Below, piece by piece: positions 8,607 through 60,717 of a DNA stretch of 64,000 bases (the stretch's first letter is position 1; each line of letters opens with the position of its first letter). The stretch is from Leptolyngbya sp. Heron Island J (GTDB taxonomy: Bacteria; Cyanobacteriota; Cyanobacteriia; Phormidesmidales; Phormidesmidaceae): positions 1 to 64,000 of the forward strand of contig NZ_AWNH01000041.1 of the NCBI RefSeq assembly GCF_000482245.1, read 5' to 3'. The notes beneath the pieces were generated by a model, which did not search any database, had not been told where the DNA came from, and worked only from the letters and a program-made list of their open reading frames with translations. A program made the position numbers and the translations under genes.

Positions 8607-8630
8607 GAGATTGCCAAAGTTCAAAACACC

Positions 8631-9008: not shown

Positions 9009-9115
9009 GGATAACGCTGATTTAACATTCTCATTACCCTACCCCATTCCAACTTCACTAAATCTGTGCAGTCTGACGGGCTGATTTCTGATGCTTGAAT
9101 TACAGTGAGGGATAG

Positions 9116-15705: not shown

Positions 15706-15753
15706 GGAAATGTCTCTAATGTTGAACCAATCTCTGTTGTTTAAAAACCAACC

Positions 15754-15797
15754 AAACCAAAAAGCTTCTCCCTGATCAGGAAGAAGCTTTTTGGTTT
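15754..15797 (-). terminator. Rho-independent terminator after phosphoketolase
   Basis: A perfect 16-bp stem: AAACCAAAAAGCTTCT at 15754-15769 pairs with AGAAGCTTTTTGGTTT at 15782-15797 around a 12-nt loop. Read on the minus strand it lies 10 bp after the xfp stop codon and is followed by a T-rich run. The stem is long and symmetric, so it may also act in the other direction. Confidence 0.85.
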
Positions 15798-15806
15798 AAG
15801 GACTAT

Positions 15807-25971: not shown

Positions 25972-28900
25972 TCAAGAATTTCGCTGTTCTCGTAGCTCTT
26001 GCAAGTTCTCTCTTATAACGTTGACAAAAGGATGATTATCTCCAAATAAACGCTGACACAACACCAGAGCTTCCTGAAAAAGTTTTTCTGCCTCGTTGAA
26101 ACGCTCTTGCTTACTGTAGAGCCTTGCAAGATTATTAAGGCTGTTAGCCACGTCAGGGTGATCTCCTAACAAGCGCTTACGGATGACTAAAGCCCCAGCA
26201 TAAGATGATTCTGCTTCATCATAATAGTTTTGCTTTGAATAGATATATCCCAAAAAGTTCAGACAATCAGCCACACTCAGATGTGAGTCACCAAATATCT
26301 GCCTCCGAAGCATTAGAGATTCTTTACAAGAGGATTCTGCCTTTTTGAGGCAATCATACTTGTCATAGAGTGTTGCTAAATTGAAGAGATTAGTAGCCAC
26401 ATTGGGATGTATATCACCAAACAATCGTTTACAGAGCGCAAGAGATTCTAGAAAAAGAGGTTCAGCATCACTTAATCGCCCTTGTTCATTATAGAGAGCA
26501 GCCAGATTGTTGATAGCAGTAGCTACTTCAGGATGATCATTACCGAAAAGGCGTTTAGAAAGCACTAATCCTTCCTTGAAGAGGGATTCGGCTTCACTGT
26601 AGCGGCCCTGATTGAGGTAGATGGATGCTAAGTTGTTGAGAGTCGCAACTATATCTGGATGCTCATTGCCTAAAAATTGTTTAGACAATATAAGAGTTTC
26701 CTTTAATAGCGGTTCAGCCTCACCATAACGCCCCTGACGAAAGTAGATTGTTCCTAAATGGTCTACGATAGTTGCCACAGCTGTATGCTCGTTGCCCAAA
26801 ACCTGTCTGCGTAATGTCAGAGATTCTTTTAGAAAAGGTTCAGCTTCTTGGAAACGCCCCTGATTCATATATACTGCGGCCAAATTATACAAAGTATTGT
26901 CCACATTAAGAGGAGCCTCATTTAATGATTGTTTACGCAGCGCTAAGAGTTCTATTAGTAAAGGTTCAGCTTTACTATACCGACCTTGCGTAGCATAGAA
27001 CATTGCTAGCTCATTAAGCGTAGAAACAGTACTAGGATGCTCGTCACCCAAAAGACTTCTATGCATTGCTAGTGCCTCTTGATATAAGGGCTCTGCTTCA
27101 TCGGGACGATTTTGCTTGCAATAGCATAGTGCTAAATTACGAAGTCCAGCAGCGATTTCAGGATGTTCATCTCCGAATATCCTTTTAAGCATTGCTAGTG
27201 CCTGTTGATATAAAAGCTCTGCCTCGTCATAGCGGTCTTTGTGAACAGAGATTTTTGCCAGATGGCCAATACTAATAGCTACATCAGGATGTTCATCTCC
27301 GAATAACTGTTTACGCATTGCTAAGGACTGTTGATGGAGATGTTCTGCTTCGCTGTAATGACCTTGATGCTCATGAAGCACAGCAAGATTATTCAGATTT
27401 TTAGCAATATCTGGATGCTCATTCCCCAATATTTTTCGCTTTAACTCTAGTACTTTCTGATAGAACTCCTCTGCCTCTTCGTATCTGCCCTGACCGTCGT
27501 AGGTTAAAGCAAGATTATTCAAACAGACTGCCACGTCCAAGTGCTCTTTACCTAATATTTTTCTGTACAATATTAATGCCTTAAGATGATAAAGTTCTGC
27601 ATCATCGTAACGACCTTGAATTTGATAAATAGTTGCCAAACCATCAAGGCTATGAGCAACATTGAGATTCTCATCACCTAGAAATTTTCTCGCCAGTGTC
27701 AGTGACTGTTGGTGAAAAGACTCCGCTTCATTGTAGCGCCCTTGATCGCTTAAATAGCTGCCTACATAATTAAAAAGTGCTCCTAATATGTCAGATTCAA
27801 TTGATAACTGCTGAGCTTGCTCAATAGCCCGGAAATAGTGGGGGAGAAGCTTTTCGCACATAGACCAATATTTGAAGCCATTACCTGGATAAGCCATAAC
27901 CATTGCGTTTGTGACCCGCTCTATCCAAGTAGCTGCTGCTGATTTCAACGTGTCGCGCACAACAGCTTGGACCAACCGATGAACGCTGTAACAGGGCCGA
28001 TCATACTCCCAGGTAATAAGTGAATACTGACTTAACGGCTCTAGTAGTTCCTTAAGGGTAAATAACTTATCCTCTTCATCTTTATCCTTAAAAGCGTTTG
28101 CCAGTTTTCCGCTTAAATGCGACGCGCCATGAGTCAAGATGCGATAGGGGATATCGTCTGGAGCAAGAAAGGAGCTAAAGTGTAGTAATTCAGAGGACCC
28201 CACGCTTTCTTTTTTTACAGCCTCAAAGTTAAGTAGCCACGTTCTAAATACTGATTCTGGATAGTTTTTTGGCTTAGCTTTTTTTTTAAGTGCTCCCGAG
28301 AAGCCTCTCTTACGATAAAAGTTCAAGTACTCTTGAATACTCATCCGTTGCTTGCGCATGTATGCACTCGCCTGTTCTAATGCAAGTGGTAGTCCACCAA
28401 GTTCATCGTTGAGTTCAGCAGCGGCAGAACGTTCTGATTCCGTTTCTTTGTATTCGGTCCTCCTAAAGAGCATTTTGGTGCCCTCTTCAGCAGACATGGG
28501 TTCCAAAGCAAACGAGGAACTAATCCCAATTTCTAAGAAGACAGAAGCTCTTGAGGTAATCAGTATCTTTCCTGCTGGATTATTGGGTATCCATGGTTCT
28601 AGTAGGGAAGGAGTGTCAGCGTTATCAAAAATAAGAAGCCAGCCATCATGATTAGCAAGCCATGCCTGCATTACTAAAATCTTCTCGTCAAGTGTTCCTT
28701 TGCCAACAGGAAGTGCCAGTTGATCAGCGAGTGCGGCGAAATTTATAGAAATATTTGTTTCTGTTTCAGCGTTTACCCAAAATACATATTCATAGGTTTT
28801 CTTATCGTGGTAATGGCGAAATGCATACTCTACAGCTGTTTGAGTTTTGCCAATGCCTCCGAGCCCGCTGATGGCCTCAACTTGAGTGATCGCAACAGCT

Positions 28901-29496
28901 TGTTGCTGTATAAGCTGCTCGTGTAGCTGCTCTAAAATCTCTTCTCTGCCTGTGAAATATCGATTTCGTGGGTAAGGAACATTAAAGTTTCTTGGTTCTC
29001 TTAATACCTTCGGACTTATTTTTTCTATCTTTTTGAGCTTTTGATAGTTCTCATGCTGTTTATCAAAGAAGAGAAGATAGTCATCCAGACTTTTTGGCTT
29101 TTTTGGGAGTTTTATTAGGTCGAACTTTTTTTCAATTTGCCCCCGGCCTCCTTTTACTTCTTTCTCATTATGGAAAATGACTAATCCCATTTCTTGTAGG
29201 TATAGTAGTCCGGGGAGAAAATGACTTGTAGAGTTCTTAAGCTGACCACCTGTTGAAAAATCCTTCTCGCTGTAGCCTCTTGACTGCATGTTGTTTGCAA
29301 TAAATGAAGCAACATCTTTCCAGGTTCCTACTACCACTTTAATCTTTTGTCTTTTTCCTTCATCAACCCACCGACATGTTCTCAGCACACTTGGCTTGTC
29401 TTCTTCGTCAAGTTCGTTTGCAACGTAGAGGACTGTTTCAAAGATTAGTTTTCCAAAGCGTTGATCTTTGGAAAGTGGATTCTTGGGGTCAGACAT
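25972..29496 (-). CDS. NB-ARC STAND NTPase with TPR array
   Basis: 1174 residues. Residues 1-130 form a helical/winged-helix-like N-terminal region that I cannot assign. NB-ARC follows, with P-loop GLGGIGKT (about 211-218), Walker B WLLIFDNAD (about 286-294), ILITSR and GLPLALEQA. From about 570 to the end runs a long array of 42-residue kinesin-light-chain-type TPRs (LFGDEHPxVAxxLNNLAxLYxxQGRYxEAE). STAND proteins of this form act as ATP-gated switches in which the repeats sense a ligand; several bacterial ones are anti-phage. Repeats are highly similar, so recent expansion is likely. It is divergent from the duplicated-domain gene at 29638 across a 141-bp gap. Confidence 0.92.
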   Translation of the reverse strand: MSDPKNPLSKDQRFGKLIFETVLYVANELDEEDKPSVLRTCRWVDEGKRQKIKVVVGTWKDVASFIANNMQSRGYSEKDFSTGGQLKNSTSHFLPGLLYLQEMGLVIFHNEKEVKGGRGQIEKKFDLIKLPKKPKSLDDYLLFFDKQHENYQKLKKIEKISPKVLREPRNFNVPYPRNRYFTGREEILEQLHEQLIQQQAVAITQVEAISGLGGIGKTQTAVEYAFRHYHDKKTYEYVFWVNAETETNISINFAALADQLALPVGKGTLDEKILVMQAWLANHDGWLLIFDNADTPSLLEPWIPNNPAGKILITSRASVFLEIGISSSFALEPMSAEEGTKMLFRRTEYKETESERSAAAELNDELGGLPLALEQASAYMRKQRMSIQEYLNFYRKRGFSGALKKKAKPKNYPESVFRTWLLNFEAVKKESVGSSELLHFSSFLAPDDIPYRILTHGASHLSGKLANAFKDKDEEDKLFTLKELLEPLSQYSLITWEYDRPCYSVHRLVQAVVRDTLKSAAATWIERVTNAMVMAYPGNGFKYWSMCEKLLPHYFRAIEQAQQLSIESDILGALFNYVGSYLSDQGRYNEAESFHQQSLTLARKFLGDENLNVAHSLDGLATIYQIQGRYDDAELYHLKALILYRKILGKEHLDVAVCLNNLALTYDGQGRYEEAEEFYQKVLELKRKILGNEHPDIAKNLNNLAVLHEHQGHYSEAEHLHQQSLAMRKQLFGDEHPDVAISIGHLAKISVHKDRYDEAELLYQQALAMLKRIFGDEHPEIAAGLRNLALCYCKQNRPDEAEPLYQEALAMHRSLLGDEHPSTVSTLNELAMFYATQGRYSKAEPLLIELLALRKQSLNEAPLNVDNTLYNLAAVYMNQGRFQEAEPFLKESLTLRRQVLGNEHTAVATIVDHLGTIYFRQGRYGEAEPLLKETLILSKQFLGNEHPDIVATLNNLASIYLNQGRYSEAESLFKEGLVLSKRLFGNDHPEVATAINNLAALYNEQGRLSDAEPLFLESLALCKRLFGDIHPNVATNLFNLATLYDKYDCLKKAESSCKESLMLRRQIFGDSHLSVADCLNFLGYIYSKQNYYDEAESSYAGALVIRKRLLGDHPDVANSLNNLARLYSKQERFNEAEKLFQEALVLCQRLFGDNHPFVNVIRENLQELREQRNS

Positions 29497-44028: not shown

Positions 44029-47000
44029 TTATTCAGCATTAATCTTCTTCCAATCCTCTCCGAGCCTCCCTAAATTTTTTCTACCTTCGAGAACACATTT
44101 AACAACTGATAGCATTTTGTCAGAAGTGAGTGCTTTATCAGCGATTCCAAAGCCACCTAAATGATTCTGAATCAATGAATGTAATCTCACAAGGCTCCTT
44201 ACTTGCGCACTCTGAACAACTATATTTTGCTTTGGATACTGTGTCATAATCCTTTTAAGATGATCTAAGCCATGATTAGTTTGTGCCCGATCACCAGAGC
44301 TTTTAGGATGAGATAAATCAGTGACGAAGAGAAATGGCTGATGATCAGCAAATAAGTAATTTGCCTCTTGTACATTGCTGGCAGATAGTAAAATATAGTC
44401 TGGATACTGCTCTGCCAATACAGAAAGGGTTCCTGCTAAAACTGCTTTATGGTCATCAAGAACTAAGATTTTTTTATTGTTTCTCAGTAAAAAATATGTA
44501 GTATTTCCTTGTTTTGTTTCTTTGTTTGAAGGGGACTCTATCCCTATCTTAGAAAGGATATCCTGTGAAACATTTTCGGCATTTTCTAGTCCTGTGATAT
44601 TACCCCAATTTGTAGAATCATCCCAAAGAATACTATCTAAATTTGCACCATAAAAGTCAACTGTCTCAAGATTAGCTCCGCAGAAATTGGCACCTACAAG
44701 ATGGGCTTGACGAAAGCTTGCTCCCATTAAGTTAGTATTCTTAAAATTGGTATCTAATAGAAAGCCTCCCTGAAAATTAGCATTACGACAATTCGTATTT
44801 TGTATACTTGAACTTGAAAGATCTGCTGCAAATAAGTCTGTCTTTTCAAGAGATGCATTATCTAAGTTTGAGTGGCTTAGATCGGCACTATGAAGTGTTG
44901 CACGATTGAAATTTACATTTTGTAAATTAGTCTGACTCAAATCAGCGCCGCTTAATAGTGATTGTTCTAAAATAGCATGGCTCAAATTAGACGTTCTAAA
45001 ATTTGCCATGAAGCAACATGCCCTACTGATAGTCGCATGACTTAGATCAGCCGAATACAAATTAGCATTATCAAGATTAGCTTTGAAAAGTCTAGTCTTT
45101 CTAAAACTAGATTCATGCATCATAGCCGAGCTAAAATTGGTTCCTTCAAGGGTTGCATCATTAAAATTAGCTGCTGAAAACCTTAATTCTCTAAACCCGA
45201 TACAACTTAGATCAGCCTGACTACAATCAATATTTGATAAAAAAGGCCCCAGTACATTAGAAAAAGAGCCTGGGATAGTATGCAGACTAGATATGAGAAT
45301 ACGCGCTAATTTTTTCTTGGAAAAACACTTCTTACTTGGCAAACTACAAGGGTGAAACTTGAGTGAATTATTAAGTTCACCACTTTGCTTGGCAATTTCT
45401 CCTTCGATTAGTGATTTTCCATAGCGATGAAGCTCTAATAGCAAAATTATCACATTTAGTCCCACATATATATCAACTTGACGCTGGCCCAAAACCTCTA
45501 TACGTTCAGTTGTTCTTGTCTGTAATAGCTTCATCTTTCGTTGCGGAAGATTTTCAGGGGGAGCGTCAATAAATTCTCCATCACTCCATCGCCAATAAAA
45601 GTCATAGAGTCGTGTGTATAAACGCTTTGCCTGAAAATCAGGATGTTGAATTAGTAAGGCGATTAAATATTCAACAATTTCTTGGGTAAGTATAGGGCAG
45701 CCCAACAAATCATACATTGTCCAATGAAATATTGAGTCCTCAATGCCATATTCTTGGTTATGTCCAGGTTGGGAAATATTAACCAGACTTTGAACAATTC
45801 TCTCAGCACACAAGAACTCTCCAAAGCTCTTGTGGATAAATTCAATCGAACCTTCTCCTTGTCTTCCTGGTTGCAGATAGAAGGTGGCTAAAGCATTCCT
45901 CAACGGTGTGTCATCAGTTTCAAGCTGTCGCTGTGCTGCTTCAAGAAAAGCTTTAACTGCCCTGTCCTGAGTTAACCGATCTTCGACGATTTGAATATTC
46001 GCAAACTCCATTCCTGACTGTGCAACACATAATCCTGCCTCTTGCAAAATACGGCGCAGGTGTTCAGGCGCTAATTCTGTAATATCAGAATTTAGTTCTC
46101 TGTTCGTTGTAATCGCTTGATTCTTTGTGTTTGTATGGAAACCGTCTGCTCGTTGTTTTGTTAGTATCCAATCTACCGTGTGATCGTAGATGAGTATCTT
46201 TGCGCTAGAGCTACCCATACCTTCAAACATTTCTAAGCGCAATCGCCCATCTCGATACATTGCTGCCAACAGGTATAGTATCAGTGGTTCTTGAGCAAGT
46301 TTTCGTACTCGATCTGGAAGCCGAGAATCCTTGAGAGCTTCGCTAAGATTTCTCTTATCAGAACCAATGATTTTACTCCAATGATGAAACCACTTCGCCT
46401 GCAATTCATCATCCATTGCTAAAATATTTAGTCGCACCAAGTTATGAGGTAAGCGACTTTCAATAGATTGCAATGCGAAGGTACGTCCAGTTATTAATAC
46501 ACGATGACCTTTTTCCGAATTGTGGGCACATCTTTCTTGAAAACGGCCTACTTGTTCTAAAAATTGGTCAAGCCCTCCGCTAGTACGGCCTTCCATTAGT
46601 AATTCATCAAAACCATCCAACAAAAACAGAAAGTTAACATTGCGATCAGTTAGCCATCCAGCGTCTGTTCTTGTGAAGTCTCGGTCAATCGCTTTTGAAA
46701 GAGTTTCCTCGAAATCCTTAGATAATACAGTTATGTCTCGTAAACGAATTAAAATTGGTGTCCAGCGAGGATGCTCGTGTCGGCGCACCCAATCTGCAAA
46801 CATACGACAAAATACACTTTTTCCTCGACCTGGTCCTCCCTGGATGAAAATCACCTTATCGCTATATTTTGAGTTGTTTATCAATTCTTGTGCCCACTGC
46901 TCCAGTGTCACAAGCTTTTGATCTTTATTTGATTCTCTATCTTTCTCTAAGGGTTGTGCCTTTAACGGCACGTAAATATCTTTATACGAAAAGTTCTCAG

Positions 47001-47763
47001 CAAAGACTGATTCATGTGGCCGAGGTGCGATGCATTCTTCTAGATAGGTATCGATACTGATGTATTTTTCAAGTACGGCATCACCTCCGATGCGATGCCA
47101 TTCCACTAATTTCTTGACACTACCGCTGTTGTCTACCAACACTGGCATCATGATACGATTTGTTTCACGTGCCAATTTATCTGAGATTTTAGTAGCTACA
47201 GCAGACTTTACCCCTAAATCTATTAGCCTAGTGGTTAAAACTTCTCCATAAGCTTTTGCTAGTTTAGATTCATGAAAATAGAGCAAAGCTTGTCTAGCTT
47301 CAATATCTCCCAACTCAATGGAATCCAGTTGTTTGAGTTTCTGTTTGACCAACTCAGATGAAGGTTGACTACCTACTTTAGTTAGCCAAGATTTGAGTTT
47401 AGGCTGATTTAAAAAGCTTTTGACAGTTTCAAGATACGCAGCTTGACTAATAAGAGCTACACTTTGTGCAATTGTTGGTTCTTTTTTTGTTTTCTCAATA
47501 TAAAAACGTAGTAGTCCTGTTCCAATAGAGATAAAGGGTAAACTGGCTTCTGCAATTCTGCCTAATGGTGAGTTAAGAGCGTCTAGTAGAGAATTTAATT
47601 GTGTCAATACAGGAGCTAATTTCTGTATATTTGGCCCTTCCGTTTCTAGTACATCAGCTAACCCCAGAACTGCCTCAGCTACGTCTTTACTACTATCAAC
47701 AGTTTCTAGAGAAATAAGTTCACGAATATCTGTGGTCAGAAAACTCCAAAGACGGCTACCCAT
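44029..47763 (-). CDS. NACHT NTPase with pentapeptide repeats and C-terminal receiver domain
   Basis: 1244 residues. An all-helical N-terminal region (about 1-300) precedes the NACHT domain with P-loop GGPGRGKS (309-316) and Walker B FLFLLDGFDEL (about 378-388). A helical region extends to about 800, and pentapeptide repeats run from about 845 to 1050. Residues about 1098-1235 form a response-regulator receiver: KILVLDDH (Asp1103/1104), candidate phosphoacceptor Asp1149 in FLFVTDL, and Lys1210 in ADKAL. Most STAND proteins carry effectors at the N-terminus and sensors at the C-terminus. A receiver at the sensor end implies control by phosphotransfer. It is a candidate defence or signalling protein; flanked by the second integrase and the TraKLM-like genes. 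Confidence 0.88.
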   Translation of the reverse strand: MGSRLWSFLTTDIRELISLETVDSSKDVAEAVLGLADVLETEGPNIQKLAPVLTQLNSLLDALNSPLGRIAEASLPFISIGTGLLRFYIEKTKKEPTIAQSVALISQAAYLETVKSFLNQPKLKSWLTKVGSQPSSELVKQKLKQLDSIELGDIEARQALLYFHESKLAKAYGEVLTTRLIDLGVKSAVATKISDKLARETNRIMMPVLVDNSGSVKKLVEWHRIGGDAVLEKYISIDTYLEECIAPRPHESVFAENFSYKDIYVPLKAQPLEKDRESNKDQKLVTLEQWAQELINNSKYSDKVIFIQGGPGRGKSVFCRMFADWVRRHEHPRWTPILIRLRDITVLSKDFEETLSKAIDRDFTRTDAGWLTDRNVNFLFLLDGFDELLMEGRTSGGLDQFLEQVGRFQERCAHNSEKGHRVLITGRTFALQSIESRLPHNLVRLNILAMDDELQAKWFHHWSKIIGSDKRNLSEALKDSRLPDRVRKLAQEPLILYLLAAMYRDGRLRLEMFEGMGSSSAKILIYDHTVDWILTKQRADGFHTNTKNQAITTNRELNSDITELAPEHLRRILQEAGLCVAQSGMEFANIQIVEDRLTQDRAVKAFLEAAQRQLETDDTPLRNALATFYLQPGRQGEGSIEFIHKSFGEFLCAERIVQSLVNISQPGHNQEYGIEDSIFHWTMYDLLGCPILTQEIVEYLIALLIQHPDFQAKRLYTRLYDFYWRWSDGEFIDAPPENLPQRKMKLLQTRTTERIEVLGQRQVDIYVGLNVIILLLELHRYGKSLIEGEIAKQSGELNNSLKFHPCSLPSKKCFSKKKLARILISSLHTIPGSFSNVLGPFLSNIDCSQADLSCIGFRELRFSAANFNDATLEGTNFSSAMMHESSFRKTRLFKANLDNANLYSADLSHATISRACCFMANFRTSNLSHAILEQSLLSGADLSQTNLQNVNFNRATLHSADLSHSNLDNASLEKTDLFAADLSSSSIQNTNCRNANFQGGFLLDTNFKNTNLMGASFRQAHLVGANFCGANLETVDFYGANLDSILWDDSTNWGNITGLENAENVSQDILSKIGIESPSNKETKQGNTTYFLLRNNKKILVLDDHKAVLAGTLSVLAEQYPDYILLSASNVQEANYLFADHQPFLFVTDLSHPKSSGDRAQTNHGLDHLKRIMTQYPKQNIVVQSAQVRSLVRLHSLIQNHLGGFGIADKALTSDKMLSVVKCVLEGRKNLGRLGEDWKKINAE

Positions 47764-49355: not shown

Positions 49356-49939
49356 AAGGATATAAGGGACATCGAGTAACCGTAGCGTTACTCTTTTTGG
49401 TGCTGGTAGCCTGTTTTCCACTCCTCTTTTTGTTTCTTCGCGATGTTGTTGCAGGGTTTTTCTCAGCATTTCACTTTGATGACAGGGTGTGTCTTTGGAT
49501 TGATGGGGTATTTCGGTTGCCGACAGATATTGCACCAGAGACGGCAGTTGGAACGCTCCAAAAGGCAACTGCAGGAGGCTCGCATAGATGGCTTATAGAG
49601 GTGGCTACCCTGTTTCCTACCCTTTGGTGTCTCCGGTTCCTAACCGGAGCAGTTGAAGAGATTCGCTCTGTCTATGGCGGGGCGTCCCCTCTTCACATCA
49701 TTGAGGTCTTTGGCCGTTGGATTGCTCTTGCAGCGCTGTTACAGGTTACAGCTCCAGTCGTTGCGGTCCTCTTTTTTCACAGTGTTCGATTTGTCGTTTG
49801 GGAGCCTTTGGCATTCTTGATGGCAGTTTCCGTGTTCCTCTTTCTTCTTGGCTGGGGATGGCAGTACCCAAACGGACGACTAAAGCATGTACGAAAAATT
49901 TATCACTTTGAGCGGTTAAAGCAGGAGGGAACAGTATGA
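49352..49939 (+). CDS. Multi-pass membrane protein in transfer operon
   Basis: 195 residues with four predicted membrane helices (about 10-35, 85-100, 120-145 and 150-175) and a basic C-terminal tail (RLKHVRKIYHFERLKQEG). No family is recognised. It is joined to both neighbours by 4-bp ATGA overlaps, so it is stoichiometrically coupled to the coupling ATPase that follows, and may anchor or assist it. Confidence 0.75.
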   Translation: MKGYKGHRVTVALLFLVLVACFPLLFLFLRDVVAGFFSAFHFDDRVCLWIDGVFRLPTDIAPETAVGTLQKATAGGSHRWLIEVATLFPTLWCLRFLTGAVEEIRSVYGGASPLHIIEVFGRWIALAALLQVTAPVVAVLFFHSVRFVVWEPLAFLMAVSVFLFLLGWGWQYPNGRLKHVRKIYHFERLKQEGTV

Positions 49940-52029
49940 AAGTTCGGTTCATCGTTGCAGTGGTGCTCATTGTGTGGCTTCTGCCGTGGTGTGTGCCGGT
50001 AGTTGAGGCTCAGGTACAGGGTGCATTACTTTCGCACAGTTTCGGGTGGCTTAACCCTGGGAATGCAGTTGGAATGCTACTTGGGGGTTCAGCAGGAGGA
50101 GCGGTAGTGAGCTTGATAGCTGCTGCTGCACGGCGGGTAAAGCGCGGCACGGTTCGGGAGGTCCTCTGGTGGCTTTTTGCGGTTACTGCGATCGCAACGC
50201 TCTATCTTGGAGTGAAAGAAGCGCTTGTGCTCTTGGTGGGACCAAAACCAGGGTTCCTTACAGCGGTAACCGTTGCCGGGTTGGGAATCGTGCAGGTAAC
50301 CCGCAAACGATTTCCTGAGTATCAGTTTGACCCGCATGTACGGGGACCACGGCTTGTAAGTTCCAAAGACATCAGGCGATCTCGTGGGGAACTTCCACCA
50401 GGACTTGTTCCCTGGGGTGCTGATTACATCGATTTTAAGGACGAGAATGAGCACTTTATGCTCCTTGGCAACATAGGAGGCGGAAAAACTACGTACTTAA
50501 AAGTCATAATGTCGTGGCTTGGATGGCGTGAGGGGGAGCTTTGGATAGTATTTGACCCAAAGATTGAGTTGGTTCCCTTTTTGAAGGCATTGGGGAAGCG
50601 GGTGCTGATATTTAATCCTTTGGATAGGCGGAGAGTCGCCTGGAACATCTGTGCTGATATCGTGAATGAGCCGCAGGTGCTTACGCTTGTAAAGGTATTA
50701 ATTCCTGATGCTGAGGGCCAAGAAAACTATTGGAGTCAGTCAGCGCAGAATCTTCTTACAAGCGTCATCGGGTTCTTTATCCGGTCTGGGAAATGGTGGG
50801 ACTTGAGAGATGTCTTACTGGCTTGTTCAAGTGAGCAATTCCTAAAGCGCATTGTTGGTGACGATGCCTTTGATACCATTATCGCTGATGGGTTAAAGGG
50901 AAAGAATGAGCATAGTGGGACCAATGACTATATGCTCACCCTTAATAACCGGTTACGACCGCTTAGGGTAATGGCTGCGCTTTGGCATTCTGCCGATGAG
51001 AAGGTAAGTCTTCGTAAGCTCATTGAAAGTGGTGACTTTGAAGATACCGTTATTGTGCTTGGCAATGACAACACATCTGGAGCAACCATACAGCAGTTAA
51101 ACTCCATTCTCTTTGAGCGGTTAGTAAATCTCATTTTAGATTTACCTGACAGTGACTTGCGGCGCATTTGGCTGTTTATTGATGAAGTCTCTGAAGCGTC
51201 TCGGTTTGTAGGAAATAACCTGGTTCGGTTTATGACGATGGCTCGGTCTCGTGGTGGGTGTGCGGTTCTGTCAGCGCAGAACACTGCAGGAATTGAGGCA
51301 CAGTTTAGAGAGAAGGCTGCTCGCCAAATACTGGAATTATCTCAGCGGTTAGCCGTCTTAGGTGGTGTTGATGGGGAGACGGCAAGAGTCGTGTCTGAGA
51401 CCTACATCGGGGAGGTCGAGGTTATTGAGTCCCAGGTTGGGTATTCGGAAGGGTTTGACGGCACAGAACGTGAAGTTAGTGATGTCTTTAAGAAACGAGG
51501 AGAGCGGGAGGTAAGTCCAACGTTGCGGCGCGTAAAGCGTCACCTTGTACCAAAGGAAGCGTTGTTTAGTTCTTCGATTCCAAAGACTGGGAAGGAAAAC
51601 GGATTAACCGGCCTTTTTGTAGGGGGTATCGGTGGTCATCACTGGCACAACTTTTCCTGGAAAGAAGTGCAAGATATGCAGATTAAACCTGATGAGAAAA
51701 CAAAAGCCTATGACCGAGTTGGACAGAAGGAGCCAGGGTTACAGTTAGCTCCCTGGAGTAATAAAGAGCTTCAGAAATGGGGGTTTCTTGAGGTTACAGA
51801 AAGAAAAGAAGAGAAAAACTTGTTTGATGAGTTTGGGGGGAGCAATGAGCAGCTCACTCGTGAATCTGTGTTACGGATGCTCCCCTTAGAGGACAGTGAG
51901 CTTGATGAAATTGCTGCTGAGTGTGGGATAGAGGCTGGCCTTAAGGCTTTTACTCGGCAGCAGCTTACCAAAATTGGTGCATGTATTGGATTTGAGCTTC
52001 TTGGTGTTTCAATTGAGTGGGAGCAATAG
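49936..52029 (+). CDS. Type IV coupling ATPase (TraD/VirD4-like), module A
   Basis: 697 residues. Two or three N-terminal membrane helices are followed by the ATPase core. It has Walker A GNIGGGKTTY near 180, IVFDPKIELVPFLKALGKRVLIFNP, Walker B RIWLFIDEVSEA near 415, the motif MARSRGGCAVLSAQN, and an acidic C-terminal region. This is the hexameric pump connecting the relaxosome to the secretion channel. It is probably the partner of the MobF relaxase of the same module. There are no VirB-type channel genes in view. Confidence 0.9.
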   Translation: MKVRFIVAVVLIVWLLPWCVPVVEAQVQGALLSHSFGWLNPGNAVGMLLGGSAGGAVVSLIAAAARRVKRGTVREVLWWLFAVTAIATLYLGVKEALVLLVGPKPGFLTAVTVAGLGIVQVTRKRFPEYQFDPHVRGPRLVSSKDIRRSRGELPPGLVPWGADYIDFKDENEHFMLLGNIGGGKTTYLKVIMSWLGWREGELWIVFDPKIELVPFLKALGKRVLIFNPLDRRRVAWNICADIVNEPQVLTLVKVLIPDAEGQENYWSQSAQNLLTSVIGFFIRSGKWWDLRDVLLACSSEQFLKRIVGDDAFDTIIADGLKGKNEHSGTNDYMLTLNNRLRPLRVMAALWHSADEKVSLRKLIESGDFEDTVIVLGNDNTSGATIQQLNSILFERLVNLILDLPDSDLRRIWLFIDEVSEASRFVGNNLVRFMTMARSRGGCAVLSAQNTAGIEAQFREKAARQILELSQRLAVLGGVDGETARVVSETYIGEVEVIESQVGYSEGFDGTEREVSDVFKKRGEREVSPTLRRVKRHLVPKEALFSSSIPKTGKENGLTGLFVGGIGGHHWHNFSWKEVQDMQIKPDEKTKAYDRVGQKEPGLQLAPWSNKELQKWGFLEVTERKEEKNLFDEFGGSNEQLTRESVLRMLPLEDSELDEIAAECGIEAGLKAFTRQQLTKIGACIGFELLGVSIEWEQ

Positions 52030-53726: not shown

Positions 53727-56687
53727 TCACTTGAACCTGTTTTTATCAGTTTCTAAGGTTAAGAACTGTATCCATCGACAGAGCCACCAACCTAGTTTTT
53801 GACCAGTAATATCTAAAAGATCAACAAATCCGAAAGGCTCTGTCTCAAAAAAACTTATTTTTTGAGACAGAGCAAAGCCTGCTCCAAGAATATCTGATGA
53901 CGCACTTCGCTGATCTCCAAATATTTCCTTGAGAAAACGACGATTTTTGGCTCCCAACATAGCACGAAGGTTAATTTCAGATTTTCGCAAGATTTCTTGA
54001 ATCATGAGTCTACATTGCCTTACCTGACCCAGATTACCTTTGATAAGATATGCCTGCCTTAAGACTAATAGACACAGTATTTGCATACGTTGATCCGAGT
54101 TTTCTCTACATGTCTTTAAAGCTTTTTCAAAGTATGGAATGGCTTTATTAACTTGACAACTTATTAGATATGCTCTCCCAGTAGAGACATAGACATAAGG
54201 AATTATTGTTTTGGTAAACTCAAAATCTTCTCTCTTTTGTTTAGAGACATTTCCACCCCCTTCTAACTCTGTTTGATATTTGACAAACTCGTTTGTAGCT
54301 TTTTGAGAGTATTCTAAAGACTTTTCATGTTCAGCATGACTGTTGGCAATGCTTGCAAGCGTATTTAAACAAAGAATTTTGACATATAGAGAATCTATTT
54401 CTTCAGCAATTTCAAGAGATGATTGTATTGACTCAAGTGCTTCATCATATCTACCCCAAACATACTGAATATGTCCATTAGTCTGAAGCATTTGAGATTT
54501 ATAATGCTTGTTCTTATTACTTCCTATAAGCTCAAAAAAAGCTTTAGTTATGTCAAGTGCATCTTCGTATCTTTCTGTATTACAGTATGCATCGCCTAAG
54601 TTTAGTATAAGTGTTGGAAATTTTTTCTTGCCTTGGCTAATAGCGTTTTCTCTTCTGTGACTTCTAATAAGTAAAGGCTCATACAATTCAATCTGGATCT
54701 TATAGTATCCATGATATTTCAGAAAATCACTGTAGCTAGATTCAAGTAAGAGCTTCAGAGCTTCATCAGCTTGATTCAACTGATTGTAGTGGTAAGCAAT
54801 CTCAGGATACTCTCTTAGTACCTCAATATCATCGCTATGGATAACTGCCTCTTTGTATATTGCTAGATAGTAACGAACAGCTCTCCAGTGAGCCTTGTGA
54901 GATACTCCAAACTTAAGTTCTATATATTTGCGTAGTGATGGTTGGAGTTCATATCTTCCATCTTGATTCTTGATAATCAACGATTTACGCAGAAGTTCCT
55001 CAATTGTTTGCTTGGATTCCATCATTGGATAACCAAGATCTAATTTAGAATAAGTCTCCTTCAGATATTTTTCTCTAAACTTTTTGGCCCAACGCTTAAC
55101 CTCCTGTTCTTCGAGCGAGGAAAGTATTACAGCTTCTTCAGAAAACGGCACACGATAGGCTGCTAGCCTTTTGATTAACTTGAGAAGATCTATTGAAAGT
55201 CGGTGCAAGTGCTTCTTTAGAAGAAAACTAGGCTTATTTTCAATCTGTTGAAATTCACCATCTACATTATCAATCAGATTCTCGAAATTTATCAGGCCTA
55301 ATTCGTCTTCAGCTTTGTTCAGATCACCATCATAATATTGACTTATAAAGCCTCCAGCAAGTCTAAGCATTAATGGATTACCATCTAGACTCTCTGACAT
55401 CCTGGAAAGATTGGCATTGTCATGAGACCTTACCCCCATTTGTTTGAGGAATTGAGCACCAATTTCAGTATCTAATCCATTCAAATAATACCAGTCAATT
55501 TTTAATGTTTGAAAATTAAATAGAGGCGGTTTAATCTGAGTAGTTACTAAAAATGTAGTATTTTTACCTTCTTCTATCCAACGACTAAAAAAGATACGAT
55601 ATGAATCATCTTGCCACTCATCAGTATTGGGAAAAAATAGATTTTCCATATTATCGATAACAATCAGATATCTTTCATGGCGTAAAGCTTTTATTACGAG
55701 ATTAATCTGCTCTGTCGTATCTTTTGCTAAAACACTTTGCGAGTTCTCATCAGAAATAGCACGAAGCATGCTTTCGCAAAAAACTGTAAAACTAGGACTT
55801 TGACGAACATCAAGCCATGCTTTTCCAAGAAAATTTAAATCTTTCTCGTAGATATGAGCTGCTAACCAAGATTTTCCTACACCAGCAATACCTTGAACGC
55901 CGATAATTTTTGATCTACTCAGCTTAAGTAAACGATATAGACCTTTGGTTTGGATGATTTTCCGTGGTTGCCATAAGTCCAGAGCAGGAGGAATCGTAAT
56001 AACATTCGCTATTGTCGTAGAACGCCTATTTCGAAATAGCTCGCTATTCGTTTTTTCAGTTAGCAAGAGACTTTTCCATCTTAAATCTTGCTTATGAAAA
56101 TCGCATTGTGCGTTTATAATCTCTTTTGGCAGTTGCTCACGTAAAACACTGACTGGAATCCCACCACCCCCTGCATTACTACTTGCGCCACGAGTAAACT
56201 TAAGCATCCCACAGAACATTCCTGTCCGCTGGTTAAGCAGTGGAGCGCCACTCATGCCTTCTCGAATTTGCCCGTCAGCAAACTTAATTTCAGGAGGGTT
56301 ACCTCCAGTTAAACCCTCATTTAAAGGGGTTACTGGACATCCATCTGGAAAATTTTTATCTGGATAAGCAAATAGATAGAACTCATCCCTAGACTTTGGA
56401 TTATCACCGAACCAAACGCAGGGATGTGGGTTCTTTAATGGTTGGCGAGTAATAAAACTCAGTAGCGCAATGTCGTATTTAGGTAACTGCAATTCGACCT
56501 TTGCTGTTGCAAAATCTAGTTGGTCCCCCCAACGAACCTCAAGATCAGTTGACTTACCGCTTCTTACTAAATGTTCACAGGTGACAATATAACCAGGAGC
56601 CACAAAAAAACCTGTCCCCCAGTGACGTTTACCTGGAACAGTCAACTTGACAGTGCAAGCTTTCAATAGCCCCTCTAGTTCAGTCAT
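53727..56687 (-). CDS. Trypsin-STAND NTPase-TPR protein
   Basis: 986 residues. The N-terminal trypsin-like protease has His39 (VTCEHLV), Asp72 (KYDIALL) and Ser146 (REGMSGAPL), all present and correctly ordered; there is no signal peptide, so it is cytoplasmic. The NTPase follows: P-loop GIAGVGKS (about 266-273) and YLIVIDNMENLFF (about 340-352). Helical and winged regions and TPR-like repeats run from about 600 to 900. Such protease-STAND-TPR proteins occur in predicted bacterial conflict systems, where ligand binding to the repeats unleashes the protease. The ATG overlaps the stop of the upstream partner by 4 bp. Confidence 0.92.
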   Translation of the reverse strand: MTELEGLLKACTVKLTVPGKRHWGTGFFVAPGYIVTCEHLVRSGKSTDLEVRWGDQLDFATAKVELQLPKYDIALLSFITRQPLKNPHPCVWFGDNPKSRDEFYLFAYPDKNFPDGCPVTPLNEGLTGGNPPEIKFADGQIREGMSGAPLLNQRTGMFCGMLKFTRGASSNAGGGGIPVSVLREQLPKEIINAQCDFHKQDLRWKSLLLTEKTNSELFRNRRSTTIANVITIPPALDLWQPRKIIQTKGLYRLLKLSRSKIIGVQGIAGVGKSWLAAHIYEKDLNFLGKAWLDVRQSPSFTVFCESMLRAISDENSQSVLAKDTTEQINLVIKALRHERYLIVIDNMENLFFPNTDEWQDDSYRIFFSRWIEEGKNTTFLVTTQIKPPLFNFQTLKIDWYYLNGLDTEIGAQFLKQMGVRSHDNANLSRMSESLDGNPLMLRLAGGFISQYYDGDLNKAEDELGLINFENLIDNVDGEFQQIENKPSFLLKKHLHRLSIDLLKLIKRLAAYRVPFSEEAVILSSLEEQEVKRWAKKFREKYLKETYSKLDLGYPMMESKQTIEELLRKSLIIKNQDGRYELQPSLRKYIELKFGVSHKAHWRAVRYYLAIYKEAVIHSDDIEVLREYPEIAYHYNQLNQADEALKLLLESSYSDFLKYHGYYKIQIELYEPLLIRSHRRENAISQGKKKFPTLILNLGDAYCNTERYEDALDITKAFFELIGSNKNKHYKSQMLQTNGHIQYVWGRYDEALESIQSSLEIAEEIDSLYVKILCLNTLASIANSHAEHEKSLEYSQKATNEFVKYQTELEGGGNVSKQKREDFEFTKTIIPYVYVSTGRAYLISCQVNKAIPYFEKALKTCRENSDQRMQILCLLVLRQAYLIKGNLGQVRQCRLMIQEILRKSEINLRAMLGAKNRRFLKEIFGDQRSASSDILGAGFALSQKISFFETEPFGFVDLLDITGQKLGWWLCRWIQFLTLETDKNRFK

Positions 56688-57010
56688 GAAATTACTTTTG
56701 CAGTCCTATCCCATTCCAAGGAAATTTCTAAATCTGCTTTACCGTTCCCTTTTACAAAAGCGGCTGTTAGCTGCCCAGACTCAAGACCTAACTCAATTCC
56801 AAATTTCACTGTAGCCTTTGTTGGCATGGCTTTATGAATTGTGGCAGAGAGTTCATCTATGATTCCACCAAGCGTTTCCGTTACTTCTTTAAATTCTTTA
56901 CTGTCAAATGCAACATCACTACGTCCACTGGCAACAACATCCGCTTGAACAATGTGGCCATTGGCAAGTTCCATAGAGATTCGTTCAGTTGGCTGTTCCT
57001 CAAATGACAT
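56684..57010 (-). CDS. Trypsin-co-occurring (CU044_2847-type) protein
   Basis: 108 residues. The pattern (strand-rich N-terminus ISMELANGHIVQADVV, helix FKEVTETLGGIIDELSATIHKAMPTKATVKF, then GIELGLESGQLTAAFVKGNGKADLEISLEW) matches what I know of the CU044_2847 / trypsin-co-occurring domain 1 family. It is the upstream gene of a two-gene operon with the trypsin-STAND protein (ATGA overlap). That is the association that gave the family its name. It is probably a substrate, inhibitor or sensor for the protease switch; the mechanism is not established. Confidence 0.83.
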   Translation of the reverse strand: MSFEEQPTERISMELANGHIVQADVVASGRSDVAFDSKEFKEVTETLGGIIDELSATIHKAMPTKATVKFGIELGLESGQLTAAFVKGNGKADLEISLEWDRTAKVIS

Positions 57011-57428
57011 AAAAGATGCTAGGGGAAGAAGTTTGCTACTTTATCCTATATGCAGTATCTTCAAAGATTATGGTGATATTAGTAGAGATCCTAAAAAGTT
57101 TATTCGCTAATCCTATTTTGGTGTGTGATAGTGAACCTAAATCGGAATGCTAAGTATTTACAAAAGCATTGATTGATTTTATAGGAAATCGTTTCAACTA
57201 ACATAGCTTAGTCAAAATCAATTGGCGACTAAATTGAATATTGATTGCTCCGCTATCTACAGTTAGTCCTACAGACAGCGCGAGCCTAAATCAGAAATGA
57301 TTGTGAAGCTTAAAAGCTCTAGGGCAGATAAAGTTTAAAGGAGCTGAGAGTCCTATCCAACTTTATTTGGGCGTATCCTTAAAAAGGATTCCTTATCAGC
57401 TCCATAGACCACAAGTAAAGACAATATC
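57011..57428. other. Intergenic region after the replication gene
   Basis: 418 bp without a supported gene, between the Trypco-type gene start and the end of the replication initiator gene. The small hairpin ATCCTTAAAAAGGAT at 57375-57389 could end the initiator transcript. The promoter of the trypsin-STAND operon should lie near 57020-57120. Confidence 0.55.
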
Positions 57429-58451
57429 TTAACTACTACATTGCATACTAGTTTTAAGCGACATTTTCTTTCGTATCCGTTTTTTACAGAATCCTAAAAA
57501 GGCCGCTTCTTCGTTGTCAATAGCCTGTCCTTTCTTACACTTCCAAGCTCGCCATTCAAGTTCCAACCCATAGACATCCAATCCAGGTACTAGCTTCTTA
57601 GCCTTTTCATAGGTAGACGGTTTAAAGGCACATTTAACTGACTGATTGCCAGAATTTTGTAACGAATCCTCAAACTGCAAGCGACTGTCAGTTTTCTTAA
57701 CCGTAAAGCGAACGGCTTTCACCTTACTTCTAGCTCCCTGAATCAGCTCATAGGAAACTTCAAAGCCTGAGCCATAAGGATTGCTGTTGATTTCTTTTAC
57801 TGCAGGCTCAAGACATCTGGAATGGAAATGCCCCCAGCATTTAAGCTTGCCGTTCGGTACTTTGAGCCACTGCCTGAGATCTTCCACAGAGACTTCAAGG
57901 ATAGGATGCTTCTGATTAGCGACACCTTCCAAGATTTCGTACAACGTCACAGAGTATTTGCCCGATAAAGAAATCAGATGATGTGTACGAATGCGAGCAT
58001 ATTGCAAAGGCTGTTTGATAGCATCAATAAGCATCTGAGGAAATTCAAACCAAATGGTGTCAGTTCCTCGGCCTTCATTCAAACGCACGGCTGAAATCAG
58101 TCGCGTAATGGTCTTGTAGCGAACATCGCCTTTATCCACTCCCTCAAACGTGACCTTGGTATCCGATAAAGACGCCAACGCATCCCATAACCAAGCTTTT
58201 CCGCGCTCCCCACCAAGCTGATTAAACACCTTCCAAACATCTGCAGCAGGCAATTCATGGACCCTACTCTCTTCCAGTCTGTGAGCTACAGCATGTAGCA
58301 GAAAAGTCCACAGCTTTCGCTCCCGTTCACGAAAGGGACCATCCACCTTGACCATAATGACTGGCTTCGGGACCGGAACAGTAACCTGCTCTGAAGTGTC
58401 TGGATTAACCTTCCAGGGGTTACCCGTCGCTTTAGGTGATTTCTGTTTCAT
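57429..58451 (-). CDS. Plasmid replication initiator, Rep_3-like
   Basis: 340 residues from ATG 58451; a TTG-initiated frame could extend to 58511. Two winged-helix-like halves are visible: LWTFLLHAVAHRLEESRVHELPAADVWKVFNQLGG and HHLISLSGKYSVTLYEILEGVANQ, with VEDLRQWLKVPN. This is the arrangement of iteron-binding Rep proteins of the RepB/Rep_3 class. Immediately upstream lie six iterons with 21-bp phasing and two DnaA boxes, which strongly support initiator function. The presence of a complete replicon within a tRNA-adjacent element indicates plasmid origin. Confidence 0.85.
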   Translation of the reverse strand: MKQKSPKATGNPWKVNPDTSEQVTVPVPKPVIMVKVDGPFRERERKLWTFLLHAVAHRLEESRVHELPAADVWKVFNQLGGERGKAWLWDALASLSDTKVTFEGVDKGDVRYKTITRLISAVRLNEGRGTDTIWFEFPQMLIDAIKQPLQYARIRTHHLISLSGKYSVTLYEILEGVANQKHPILEVSVEDLRQWLKVPNGKLKCWGHFHSRCLEPAVKEINSNPYGSGFEVSYELIQGARSKVKAVRFTVKKTDSRLQFEDSLQNSGNQSVKCAFKPSTYEKAKKLVPGLDVYGLELEWRAWKCKKGQAIDNEEAAFLGFCKKRIRKKMSLKTSMQCSS

Positions 58452-58540
58452 AGGTCCGTAGATATCACGGCACCTAGCACCTAGCAAGCCGTGATTGGTG
58501 TCAGGTGACAATATCTGACAGACATAGGCTTCTCAAATAG

Positions 58541-59178: not shown

Positions 59179-60717
59179 GTGAAGTATTACCATCAGCGTT
59201 TCCCTGCCCATCTCGGCATTGCAGCCGTGCTCTCCATTGGTGAGATATTCGCCCTTCGAGATTCCTGGCTTACCTATCAAATGGGTATGGTCCCCCTCTA
59301 CAGCGGGTTATTTGTTCTTACAGCCTCAGGCATCGTCTTGGGCAGTGCCAAGCTAACCGACCTCTATGAGCAAAAAAAGCATCTGCGGGGAACCACGATG
59401 CTGACCAATAAATCCTTTGTGGATGAAGTAGATGGTGATGGCATCGCCATTCCTAACAACAGTGCTGAAAAAAGACAGGCCAAAGAACCACCATTTCTAG
59501 AAATTCGTCAGGAAGATGAGAATAAACATTTTCTCGTCTGTGGTGACACCGGCTCAGGCAAAAGTTCCATATTTCACTATTTCGCGACCCAACTACAGCA
59601 TCGAGATGAGGAGATCGCTGTCTTCTATGACCCCAAGTGTGAGTTCTGGAAATACCACGGCTCTCCAGAACGGGGGGATATCTTGCTCTATCCATTTTCA
59701 GACAGTTGCCCCTATTGGGACCTGGCCGCTGAGGTGACCCGCCCAGAAAAAGCAAAGCTATTGGCAGAAAGTTTGCTGCCCTGTACTCCAGGTGAAGAAG
59801 AACGGTTCTTTGTGAAAAGTCCGCGTAATATTCTGGAGCATCTGCTGTTGGAGATGAAATCGCAGAATGCCTCTGTAGACGATCTACTCAAGTGGCTTAG
59901 TTCCGGCGAGCAGATTGATGAAATCTTAGCTGGTGATCCTGTAGCGCAATACATCCCCAAGGAAGCCCCGGACCAACGGGCAGGGGTCCTGGGTAGCTTA
60001 AGTAATGTGGCCTCCCATCTAAAGCTTTTGCCACCCAAGGATGGACGTGACAGCTTTTCACTGGCTGAAATGGTGCAGAAACGTTCAGGTTGGCTGTTTA
60101 TTGGCGCGGCAGGTGTTGCCGATCAGCAAATCCTGCAGCCTTTGTTTTCCATCTGGTTCAATATCCTGATTCAACAACTTCTGGACTTCTCCCCAGAGGA
60201 CAGCCCACCCGCCACCTGGATTTTTATTGATGAAATTGCCTCCCTAAAAACTCTAAGTTTCCTTGAGCAAGCGGCGTCCCAGGCGAGAAGCTACAACACT
60301 CGCCTTGTCCTTGGCTTTCAGAACAAGCATCAGATTGAGAATTTCTACCATAAGCTGGCCATGCCCATACTCTCGGCTCCAAAAACAAAGATCTTTCTTA
60401 GAACTGCTGAGATTGATTCGGCTGAATGGTGTGCTCGCATGATTGGGGAGCCGGAGTTTGAGCAACGGGTGATCAGCGAATCCTCACAGCTTGTAGGTAG
60501 GCGAGGGGAATCCTTGAGCTACCGGCAGGACCGAAAAACCGAGTATCTCGTGCTTCCGGCTGAGTTTCTATCCCTGGGAGATCGCGAAGGATTTCTGCAG
60601 TATCAGGGTATGACCACCCCCATCCAGTTTGACTATCCCGACCTGACCGCCAGAAATAAGGTCAAACGCGGCAAACAGCAATTTCAATCAAAACGACGCG
60701 CCCTAAACTGGATCTGA
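59179..60717 (+). CDS. Type IV coupling ATPase (TraG/TraD-like), module B
   Basis: 512 residues. Two N-terminal membrane helices (about 10-27 and 38-56) precede the ATPase core. It has Walker A VCGDTGSGKSSIFHYF near 118-125, VFYDPKCEFWKYH, Walker B WIFIDEIASLKTLSFLEQAASQARSYNTRLVLGFQNKHQI, and a C-terminal strand region. The start is probably GTG 59179. It is the second coupling protein in the window and only distantly similar to the one at 49.9 kb. The 3' end overlaps the convergent MobQ relaxase by 15 bp. It pairs with that relaxase, like TraG/TraA of Agrobacterium plasmids. Confidence 0.9.
   Translation: MKYYHQRFPAHLGIAAVLSIGEIFALRDSWLTYQMGMVPLYSGLFVLTASGIVLGSAKLTDLYEQKKHLRGTTMLTNKSFVDEVDGDGIAIPNNSAEKRQAKEPPFLEIRQEDENKHFLVCGDTGSGKSSIFHYFATQLQHRDEEIAVFYDPKCEFWKYHGSPERGDILLYPFSDSCPYWDLAAEVTRPEKAKLLAESLLPCTPGEEERFFVKSPRNILEHLLLEMKSQNASVDDLLKWLSSGEQIDEILAGDPVAQYIPKEAPDQRAGVLGSLSNVASHLKLLPPKDGRDSFSLAEMVQKRSGWLFIGAAGVADQQILQPLFSIWFNILIQQLLDFSPEDSPPATWIFIDEIASLKTLSFLEQAASQARSYNTRLVLGFQNKHQIENFYHKLAMPILSAPKTKIFLRTAEIDSAEWCARMIGEPEFEQRVISESSQLVGRRGESLSYRQDRKTEYLVLPAEFLSLGDREGFLQYQGMTTPIQFDYPDLTARNKVKRGKQQFQSKRRALNWI

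Follow-up and report, generated by a model that had tools for sequence, protein, structure and literature searches.

Trypco1 was named in 2020 for its co-occurrence with trypsins, and the accessible part of that study (Kaur et al. 2020, PMC7159879) proposes, on computational grounds, that the family belongs to conflict systems, a proposal also mentioned in a first-pass annotation of the DNA studied here. In the VMAP-related systems described there, Trypco1 lies beside a trypsin-type peptidase and STAND NTPases form part of the network; Trypco is paired with trypsin, and caspase with an alpha/beta hydrolase. A search of the open literature mentioning Trypco1 (the accessible text of PMC7159879 and PMC10907252, with subscription journals and preprints outside its range) found no experiments on the domain. 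In the Avs1, Hachiman and Lamassu nuclease-protease pairs, an upstream gene accompanies an N-terminal trypsin on a defence switch, and the pair has been passed between unrelated systems; for Avs1 and Hachiman, the available text reports that the pro-nuclease encoded upstream of the trypsin was shown experimentally to be its substrate (Tuck et al. 2025, PMC12799240). In CARD-NLR / LypABC, as far as the accessible text of PMC13236601 describes them, trypsin-like proteases occur together with an NLR-like TPR ATPase.

Here we describe a Trypco1-trypsin gene pair within a window of 64,000 nucleotides from Leptolyngbya sp. Heron Island J (contig NZ_AWNH01000041.1, positions 1 to 64,000). Judged by its sequence, the pair belongs to the family of predicted conflict systems described in PMC7159879, in a variant with an NB-ARC-TPR switch.

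Results

Both genes are encoded on the minus strand. The open reading frame list, Pfam and NCBIfam place a Trypco1 / CU044_2847-family protein of 108 residues at 56684..57010, and the frame list and Pfam a trypsin-NB-ARC-TPR protein of 986 residues at 53727..56687. The two are joined, as had been reported earlier, by an ATGA stop/start overlap at 56684..56687 (read on the minus strand), and the same overlap is readable at the gene junctions of four relatives (L163, L166, L172 and L180). Trypco1, encoded just upstream, is probably made by translational coupling. The small protein scored 54.4 bits against Pfam Trypco1 PF19493 (E=2e-14, cut-off 24.6) and 56.4 bits against NCBIfam NF041216 CU044_2847 (cut-off 23), and its neighbouring trypsin-like peptidase gene is the overlapping downstream one. 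A scan for sigma-70-type promoters gave 8 sites against a shuffle mean of 10.5, that is, no excess, with no site within 57011-57428.

The contig resembles a mobile plasmid, with relaxase, replication and coupling genes present. The nearest neighbours scanned by Pfam were RadC, Rep3, TrwB-type and MobA/MobL; the window pair and these neighbours are without MoxR, vWA or VMAP, no VMAP-C was found in the large protein, and the switch is of the NB-ARC-TPR kind, unlike the VMAP-related and MoxR-vWA ternary systems. The two genes next upstream of the 986-residue gene are Trypco1 and then Rep3, with no MBL-fold nuclease between or among them, so that the upstream gene is Trypco1 where Avs1/HamMAB-type loci have the nuclease; cleavage is only predicted here.

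The large protein begins with a Trypsin_2 domain (residues 24-161, 56205..56618 on the minus strand, Pfam E=3.8e-11). All three residues of the triad were located, namely His39 in TCEHLVR (codon 56571-56573), Asp72 in PKYDIAL (56472-56474) and Ser146 in EGMSGAP (56250-56252), each on the minus strand, and they are identical in 55/55 paired loci, consistent with a chymotrypsin-fold active peptidase. The protease-domain fold of the relative L165 is of the HtrA/DegS/MarP type; unlike those proteins, the window protein has no PDZ domain (Pfam) or obvious export signal and is fused to NB-ARC. Only 23 residues precede the domain, with no CARD-like helical domain among them, and the trypsin is fused to its switch, whereas the accessible text of PMC13236601 has CARD-trypsin and NLR as separate proteins.

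The residue six before the catalytic Ser is Gln in 35/55 paired loci. Classical trypsin carries Asp at this S1-pocket position, and specificity for Arg/Lys is therefore doubtful. In PADLOC, the families matched at E<=0.01 were TPR, two RT-Protease_XI models and PDC-M35A, and none of the Avs models; the likeness to RT-Protease_XI lies in the trypsin domain (E=4.4e-9), but the window protein has no reverse transcriptase domain among its Pfam matches. At E 1e-3, nothing in the phage collection matched the trypsin domain, and a scan of genome contigs with the whole 986-residue protein gave no relative.

The trypsin domain is followed by an NB-ARC match (residues 252-347, 55647..55934, Pfam E=7.6e-10, 38.9 bits against a cut-off of 23.5), all features in this part being on the minus strand. 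It contains an intact P-loop, GIAGVGKS (residues 266-273, 55869..55892), and a Walker B strand, LIVID (residues 341-345, 55653..55667), both identified as sequence motifs, as was GNPLML (residues 436-441, 55365..55382), which we take to be a GxP-type motif. Beyond these lies a TPR repeat region, the presumed sensor, with Pfam pieces inside residues 694-862 (54102..54608) that include TPR_12 at residues 745-798 (E=8e-9). A P-loop and Walker B NTPase between effector and repeat domains is the arrangement of a STAND, or NLR-like, NTPase. The highest 19-residue Kyte-Doolittle mean was 1.14 (0.93 for windows starting before residue 25), and by this crude measure no signal peptide or membrane helix is obvious in the protein. 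The anatomy given in the first-pass annotation, a STAND switch joined to an intracellular protease with an intact triad and no signal peptide, is borne out; its further suggestion, that the small partner is the substrate, is permitted by the data and to us falls a little below an even chance.

STAND-TPR proteins include transcription regulators, for example MalT, and a TPR_MalT match is seen here below its cut-off. The locus might accordingly serve regulation or quality control rather than defence, the NB-ARC-TPR part sensing an internal cue and the protease cutting a regulator. However, a plasmid-like location, patchy spread (Trypco1 occurs in 47/292 genomes of the phylum) and varied sensors, all found here, are typical of conflict genes, and we consider a regulatory role improbable.

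Trypco1 adjoins a related trypsin in 30/32 named genome loci, in either gene order (it is placed after the trypsin in L173 and L176). From this linkage and the triad identical in every paired locus, the pairing is more than chance. Both named loci lacking a Trypco1 match are non-intact: in L193 the sequence starts inside the trypsin, and in L191 a frameshifted trypsin stands beside a 25-residue Trypco1 remnant. Against the linkage, L073 (3.3 kb), whose partial trypsin shares 91% identity with the L132 trypsin, carries no Trypco1, and two weakly related viral-contig trypsins (29-30% identity) had no Trypco1 match nearby on either strand. The protease without its partner is thus met only in fragments or weak relatives. 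The reverse is common: among 84 Trypco1 loci of the phylum set, 33 have a trypsin downstream, 23 a caspase and 28 neither (one of the latter, L145, has a trypsin match upstream), and in L081 Trypco1 persists beside a broken trypsin.

This asymmetry would suit a Trypco1 that regulates the protease, whether as a cap, a chaperone, an antitoxin-like inhibitor until the switch fires or an active-site cofactor. The same reading draws on Trypco1 being encoded first with the ATGA overlap, on its conservation, which in 33 close loci is at least as good as that of the trypsin (59% against 53% in mean identity), and on the presence of the same cassette on VMAP proteins, where other effectors would be expected from the accessible text of PMC7159879. 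However, Trypco1 branches lie beside unrelated trypsin and caspase, so that a single inhibitor fold would need to suit each of them separately, the decay cases are few and come partly from MAG contigs, and no docking was predicted in a joined model. We hold the regulator to be possible, short of an even chance and only slightly less likely than a substrate role.

The caspase loci form a second Trypco1 branch, whose genes lie divergently beside caspase-STAND genes (23/84 loci, and 0/33 of the trypsin loci), an arrangement not met in the accessible part of PMC7159879. In the phylum set no trypsin locus also had a caspase (0/33), but in the named set L168 carries a caspase-like frame just upstream of Trypco1 and a trypsin-NACHT gene, and strict exclusion of the two proteases was rejected. 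A Trypco1 found beside trypsin, beside caspase or, as in L134 and its relatives, beside neither could also be an adaptor, which would recruit host or invader proteins to the activated protease or link receptors in the manner of effector-associated domains; the authors of PMC10907252, in its accessible text, file Trypco1/2 as adapter domains. Effector-associated domains are described there as fused to sensors and effectors, yet no open reading frame with both Trypco1 and trypsin matches was found in the phylum set or in the named and viral-contig set, and we regard the adaptor as unlikely.

Comparison of relatives shows that Trypco1 and trypsin form a cassette of ~1 kb carried on unrelated switches (NB-ARC, NACHT, nSTAND1, ATPase_2/AAA, TIR-AAA_35 and VMAP), with DNA similarity that breaks off close to where the trypsin domain finishes. 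L181 (nSTAND1-pentapeptide) and L185 (with a GLRRSGKS-type P-loop) share 92% DNA identity over 966 bp, beginning 31 bp before the Trypco1 frame and stopping at about trypsin residue 203. L163 (trypsin-TPR) and L164 (NACHT-HEAT), from the same MAG, share 84.5% over 955 bp to about residue 184, and L171 (TPR type) and L165 (NACHT-HEAT) share 77.5% over 915 bp to about residue 195; the breakpoint was also compared for L163 and L165. The corresponding span in the window is 56088..57010 on the minus strand, its 3′ limit (about trypsin residue 184-205) being taken from the breakpoints measured in relatives. On the trypsin tree, for the 37/55 rows carrying a switch-class label, the classes required 12 changes, against a minimum possible of 6 and an average of 22.0 after shuffling; for the five NB-ARC rows, five changes were required. 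Since the classes are still clustered, exchange of the switch is recurrent but not free.

Distances for Trypco1 and trypsin were correlated overall (r 0.89). In 13 NACHT-only loci, the correlation of Trypco1 distance with NACHT (r 0.79) exceeded that with trypsin (r 0.61). The overall value may thus reflect shared descent alone, and it was rejected as proof of a direct Trypco1-trypsin interaction.

The structure model of Trypco1 was weak (pLDDT 62). It matched no known fold in Foldseek (best E 0.51 with this weak model), and the best VIA-align hit, GnsA at Z 4.2, is within the range that VIA-align itself labels as common arrangements. Nothing toxic or enzymatic was seen in the protein. When the natural read-through Trypco1-trypsin chain of L165 was modelled, the trypsin was modelled well and Trypco1 poorly (35-72 pLDDT over 10-residue blocks), and in this joined model, from one job, Trypco1 was not confidently placed or docked. 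Residues 29-35, GRSDVAF (56906..56926 on the minus strand), a candidate cleavage or docking peptide, form a low-confidence part of the Trypco1 model. Arg30 is kept in 25/33 close loci, which rules it out as a universal cleavage residue, and the adjacent positions 34, 37 and 39 are variable.

Discussion

The cassette on unrelated switches, the 30/32 linkage and the separate caspase-side branch together suggest that Trypco1 most likely serves the protease and not the sensor, and we think it probable that the locus encodes a STAND-gated protease with a protease-dedicated partner. In such a two-gene NLR-like system, the 986-residue protein would be held off in the resting cell until its TPR arm is bound by a trigger, probably the product of a phage or plasmid. 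Nucleotide exchange at the NB-ARC switch and oligomerisation of the protein would follow, ordering the N-terminal HtrA-like protease, while Trypco1, as the dedicated partner of the protease domain, would travel along whenever switch and sensor are exchanged.

What the partner does is less settled. As a client, the role that we favour, Trypco1 would be cut by the activated protease, possibly in its flexible and conserved loop, and once released or altered would carry signal or damage; this is possible, if somewhat short of an even chance, and a regulator or adaptor fits the Trypco1 data almost as well. Trypco1 occupies the gene position of the pro-nuclease substrate of Avs1 and Hachiman in the available text of PMC12799240. 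Its loop 29-35, for all the low model confidence, has Gly29 and Val33 invariant in 33/33 close loci. The incomplete retention of Arg30, the unplaced joined model and the many Trypco1 genes without a protease neighbour are neutral to a client or speak against it.

A partner and protease found on several unrelated switches make the job of Trypco1 directly testable. Were the cassette portable and Trypco1 its client or gate, one two-gene locus could settle the role of the domain across many predicted systems, the caspase-associated branch included. We consider it doubtful that Trypco1 acts as an execution node shared among bacterial NLR-like receptors, with branches for trypsin-STAND and caspase-STAND proteins and the cassette as a portable output module; if so, two unrelated proteases would act through one small domain, on interchangeable switches and sensors.

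Wider spread outside the phylum rests on Streptomyces canus plasmid H17 and a marginal match in Couchioplanes (L194, E 2e-4 in one scan and 1e-3 in another). In L167 and L171, a single Trypco1 gene stands before two tandem receptors.

Anatomy of the gene pair

The pair lies on the minus strand, where the Trypco1 gene (57010 to 56684, 108 codons; PF19493 in Pfam, CU044_2847 family in NCBIfam) overlaps by ATGA a 986-codon gene (56687 to 53727). In the larger product, Pfam finds a Trypsin_2 domain at residues 24-161, an NB-ARC domain at residues 252-347 and TPR pieces from residue 694 to 862. The sequence contains the overlap and the intact catalytic triad reported by the first-pass annotation, together with intact P-loop, Walker B and GNPLML motifs; this anatomy supports the proposed STAND-gated internal protease. 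PADLOC hits at E<=0.01 covered the TPRs and the trypsin domain, the latter through RT-Protease_XI, with a weak further hit to PDC-M35A (E 0.0054) and none to the window Trypco1. We consider it improbable that the system serves regulation outside defence.

Association of Trypco1 with trypsin genes

A trypsin query built from an alignment (A1) of 11 domains, across which the catalytic triad is invariant, was searched as a profile against genome contigs and returned 32 loci (31 cyanobacterial, one actinobacterial), of which five (L181-L184, L190) were taken to lie on contigs also covered by the same-phylum set. Profile searching found Trypco1 near 30 of the 32; of the two misses, L193 starts within trypsin, and L191 has a frameshifted trypsin with a 25-residue Trypco1 remnant left upstream. 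The arrangement varies: Trypco1 lies downstream of the trypsin gene at L173 and L176, a single Trypco1 precedes two tandem trypsin-STAND genes at L167 and L171, and in Streptomyces canus Trypco1 and a large trypsin-like gene are arranged divergently. Against linkage stand two viral-contig trypsin relatives (29-30% identity) with no Trypco1 on either strand, and a partial trypsin (L073) that also has none.

Within the phylum, Trypco1 occurs in 47 of 292 genomes, at 87 places including the window; an ORF was obtained at 84, and none at L156, L158 and L160. A trypsin ORF of >100 aa is next downstream on the same strand in 33 of the 84 loci (window counted; L159 is a 129-aa trypsin fragment), a caspase-like ORF is present in 23, neither protease in 28 and both in none; several loci are near-copies, so these counts are not independent events. 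One locus counted among the 28, L145, has an upstream ORF with a C-terminal match to the trypsin profile. It lies in the window's own genome (contig C8), where a P-loop protein with its trypsin match at residues 480-683 precedes a distant Trypco1, domain order and gene order both being reversed. The Trypco1 of L126, L134, L147 and L138 belongs to a branch close to that of the window, with no protease gene alongside; the first three share a similar upstream ORF of 280-287 aa, SWIM-like by eye, preceded in L126 and L134 by an ORF that looks helicase-like.

A caspase-associated branch

The caspase-like ORF directly precedes the Trypco1 ORF on the opposite strand in 23 of the 84 loci (L102 being a 48-aa fragment only and L131 split), with ORF edges from 321 bp apart to a 12 bp overlap. 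Among these loci are L085, L092, L099, L105, L109, L116, L118, L122, L133, L148 and 13 more. Of ten such ORFs scanned with Pfam, nine fuse Peptidase_C14 to nSTAND1 and one to iSTAND, and seven also match WD40, pentapeptide or FGE-sulfatase.

A Trypco1 tree of 103 rows separates these contexts: the three labels require 12 changes (shuffled mean 40.6) and the caspase label four (shuffled mean 20.2), in a quick tree with many weak forks, from which rows of <60 residues were left out and in which L145 was relabelled trypsin by hand. All 22 caspase rows, with 13 'neither' rows, fall on one side of a single branch (starred). This separation means that Trypco1 branches match protease class. Both protease classes meet in one locus of the trypsin search, L168 (933-5645, plus strand; Phormidium tenue FACHB-886), where a caspase-like ORF of ~1,570 aa lies immediately before Trypco1 and a trypsin-NACHT-HEAT gene, all on one strand. 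At DGR loci, PMC10907252 notes Trypco1/2 close to domains of trypsin or caspase type, so that Trypco1-protease adjacency as such has already been hinted at.

Variation of switch and sensor

Pfam was run on 37 trypsin-bearing proteins (from 20 of the 32 such phylum loci beyond the window, plus 17 proteins from 15 loci of the trypsin search). The same N-terminal protease is joined to NB-ARC-TPR, NACHT-HEAT, nSTAND1-pentapeptide, ATPase_2 or AAA_22, TIR-AAA_35, VMAP-M1/C, NACHT-HEAT-TIR (L173), nSTAND1-WD40 (L078, its trypsin called by our own profile) or TPR alone (L163). The L173 protein (5980-10383), which ends in the C-terminal TIR, is followed by its Trypco1.

In a tree of the trypsins from 55 loci, 37 of which carry a label, 12 changes of switch class are required (minimum possible 6); the labels of L170, L179, L185 and L192 were assigned from the P-loop motif, and L171 was labelled NB-ARC, though Pfam with a 1e-5 cut-off returned AAA_16/nSTAND6 plus TPRs. 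Since the shuffled mean is 22.0, switch classes still cluster; the five NB-ARC rows need five changes.

Comparison of the DNA itself gives the clearest evidence. L181 and L185, which have different switches, share a 966-bp stretch of 92% identity that begins 31 bp ahead of the Trypco1 ORF and ends near trypsin residue 203. Other pairs with different switches behave similarly: 955 bp at 84.5% for L163 and L164, both from one MAG, ending near residue 184; 1,025 bp at 86.5% for L163 and L165, ending near residue 205; and 915 bp at 77.5% for L171 and L165, ending near residue 195. Where the switch is shared, the match runs on (L164 and L165, 2,483 bp; L181 and L186, 2,207 bp). A match that stops near the end of trypsin when switches differ, and extends when they are shared, shows Trypco1 and trypsin behaving as a single cassette.

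Possible role of Trypco1 and protease activation

Trypco1 and trypsin distances correlate across the 55 loci (r 0.89; 0 of 2,000 permutations as high) and in 38 less similar loci (r = 0.875), the value dropping to 0.695 in a close clade of 33. Loci that were duplicate, fragmentary or weak (L159, L172, L181-L184, L187, L190, L191, L193-L196) had been set aside beforehand. In 13 NACHT-only loci, Trypco1 follows NACHT (r 0.79) more closely than trypsin (r 0.61). The correlation shows joint inheritance, not contact. Few decay cases are able to separate a client from an inhibitor: L081 keeps Trypco1 beside a broken trypsin, and in L103 Trypco1 is truncated and trypsin gave no hit. We tentatively prefer Trypco1 as the client that the protease would cleave, the substrate role raised by the first-pass annotation, with Trypco1 as a regulator of the protease a nearly as plausible reading. 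An adaptor role, in which Trypco1 would recruit other proteins to the protease, appears unlikely.

AlphaFold2 gave Trypco1 a beta-beta-alpha-beta-beta-beta-beta model of low confidence (pLDDT 62.1, pTM 0.45), and fold comparison of this model returned no match. Its loop 29-35 has pLDDT <50; in the 33 close loci, Gly29 and Val33 are invariant (33/33) and Arg30 is kept in 25. Modelling of the natural read-through chain of L165 was confident for an HtrA/DegS/MarP-like protease (most blocks at 89-98) and left Trypco1 unplaced.

In digestive trypsins, Asp precedes the catalytic Ser. All 55 loci have F, M, L, Y, I or V at that position, and because Asp is absent from all of them, the classical mechanism, in which a new N-terminus activates the protease, is unlikely. 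Oligomerisation, which PMC12799240 reports as activating fused effectors of Hachiman, AVAST and Lamassu, is the natural model.

Plasmid-like setting

The contig is 77,868 bases long in a genome of 8.06 Mb. Next to the pair, Pfam finds a Rep3 initiator (57432-58511), RadC, MobA/MobL and two coupling proteins of TrwB type; a TrwC relaxase and an integrase lie farther away, which makes the contig mobile-plasmid-like. The coupling proteins are two different TrwB/TraD-type proteins (49936-52029 and 59179-60717), and both a TrwC and a MobA/MobL relaxase share the contig with them. An annotated relative pair (44.7% identity for Trypco1, 52.9% for trypsin) lies on Allocoleopsis franciscana plasmid pMIC7113.01, typed conjugative.

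Three more STAND-type proteins are found on the window's contig: NNH3-NACHT-pentapeptide (44032-47763, minus), NB-ARC-TPR with DUF7779 (25975-29496, minus) and, at locus L162 (10585-14103, contig C41), a putative NB-ARC/WD40-like protein recognised by visual inspection together with a tblastn match. L162 also encodes (14373-15848) a 491-aa protein in which lectin-like repeats flank a segment resembling pore-forming proteins by eye.
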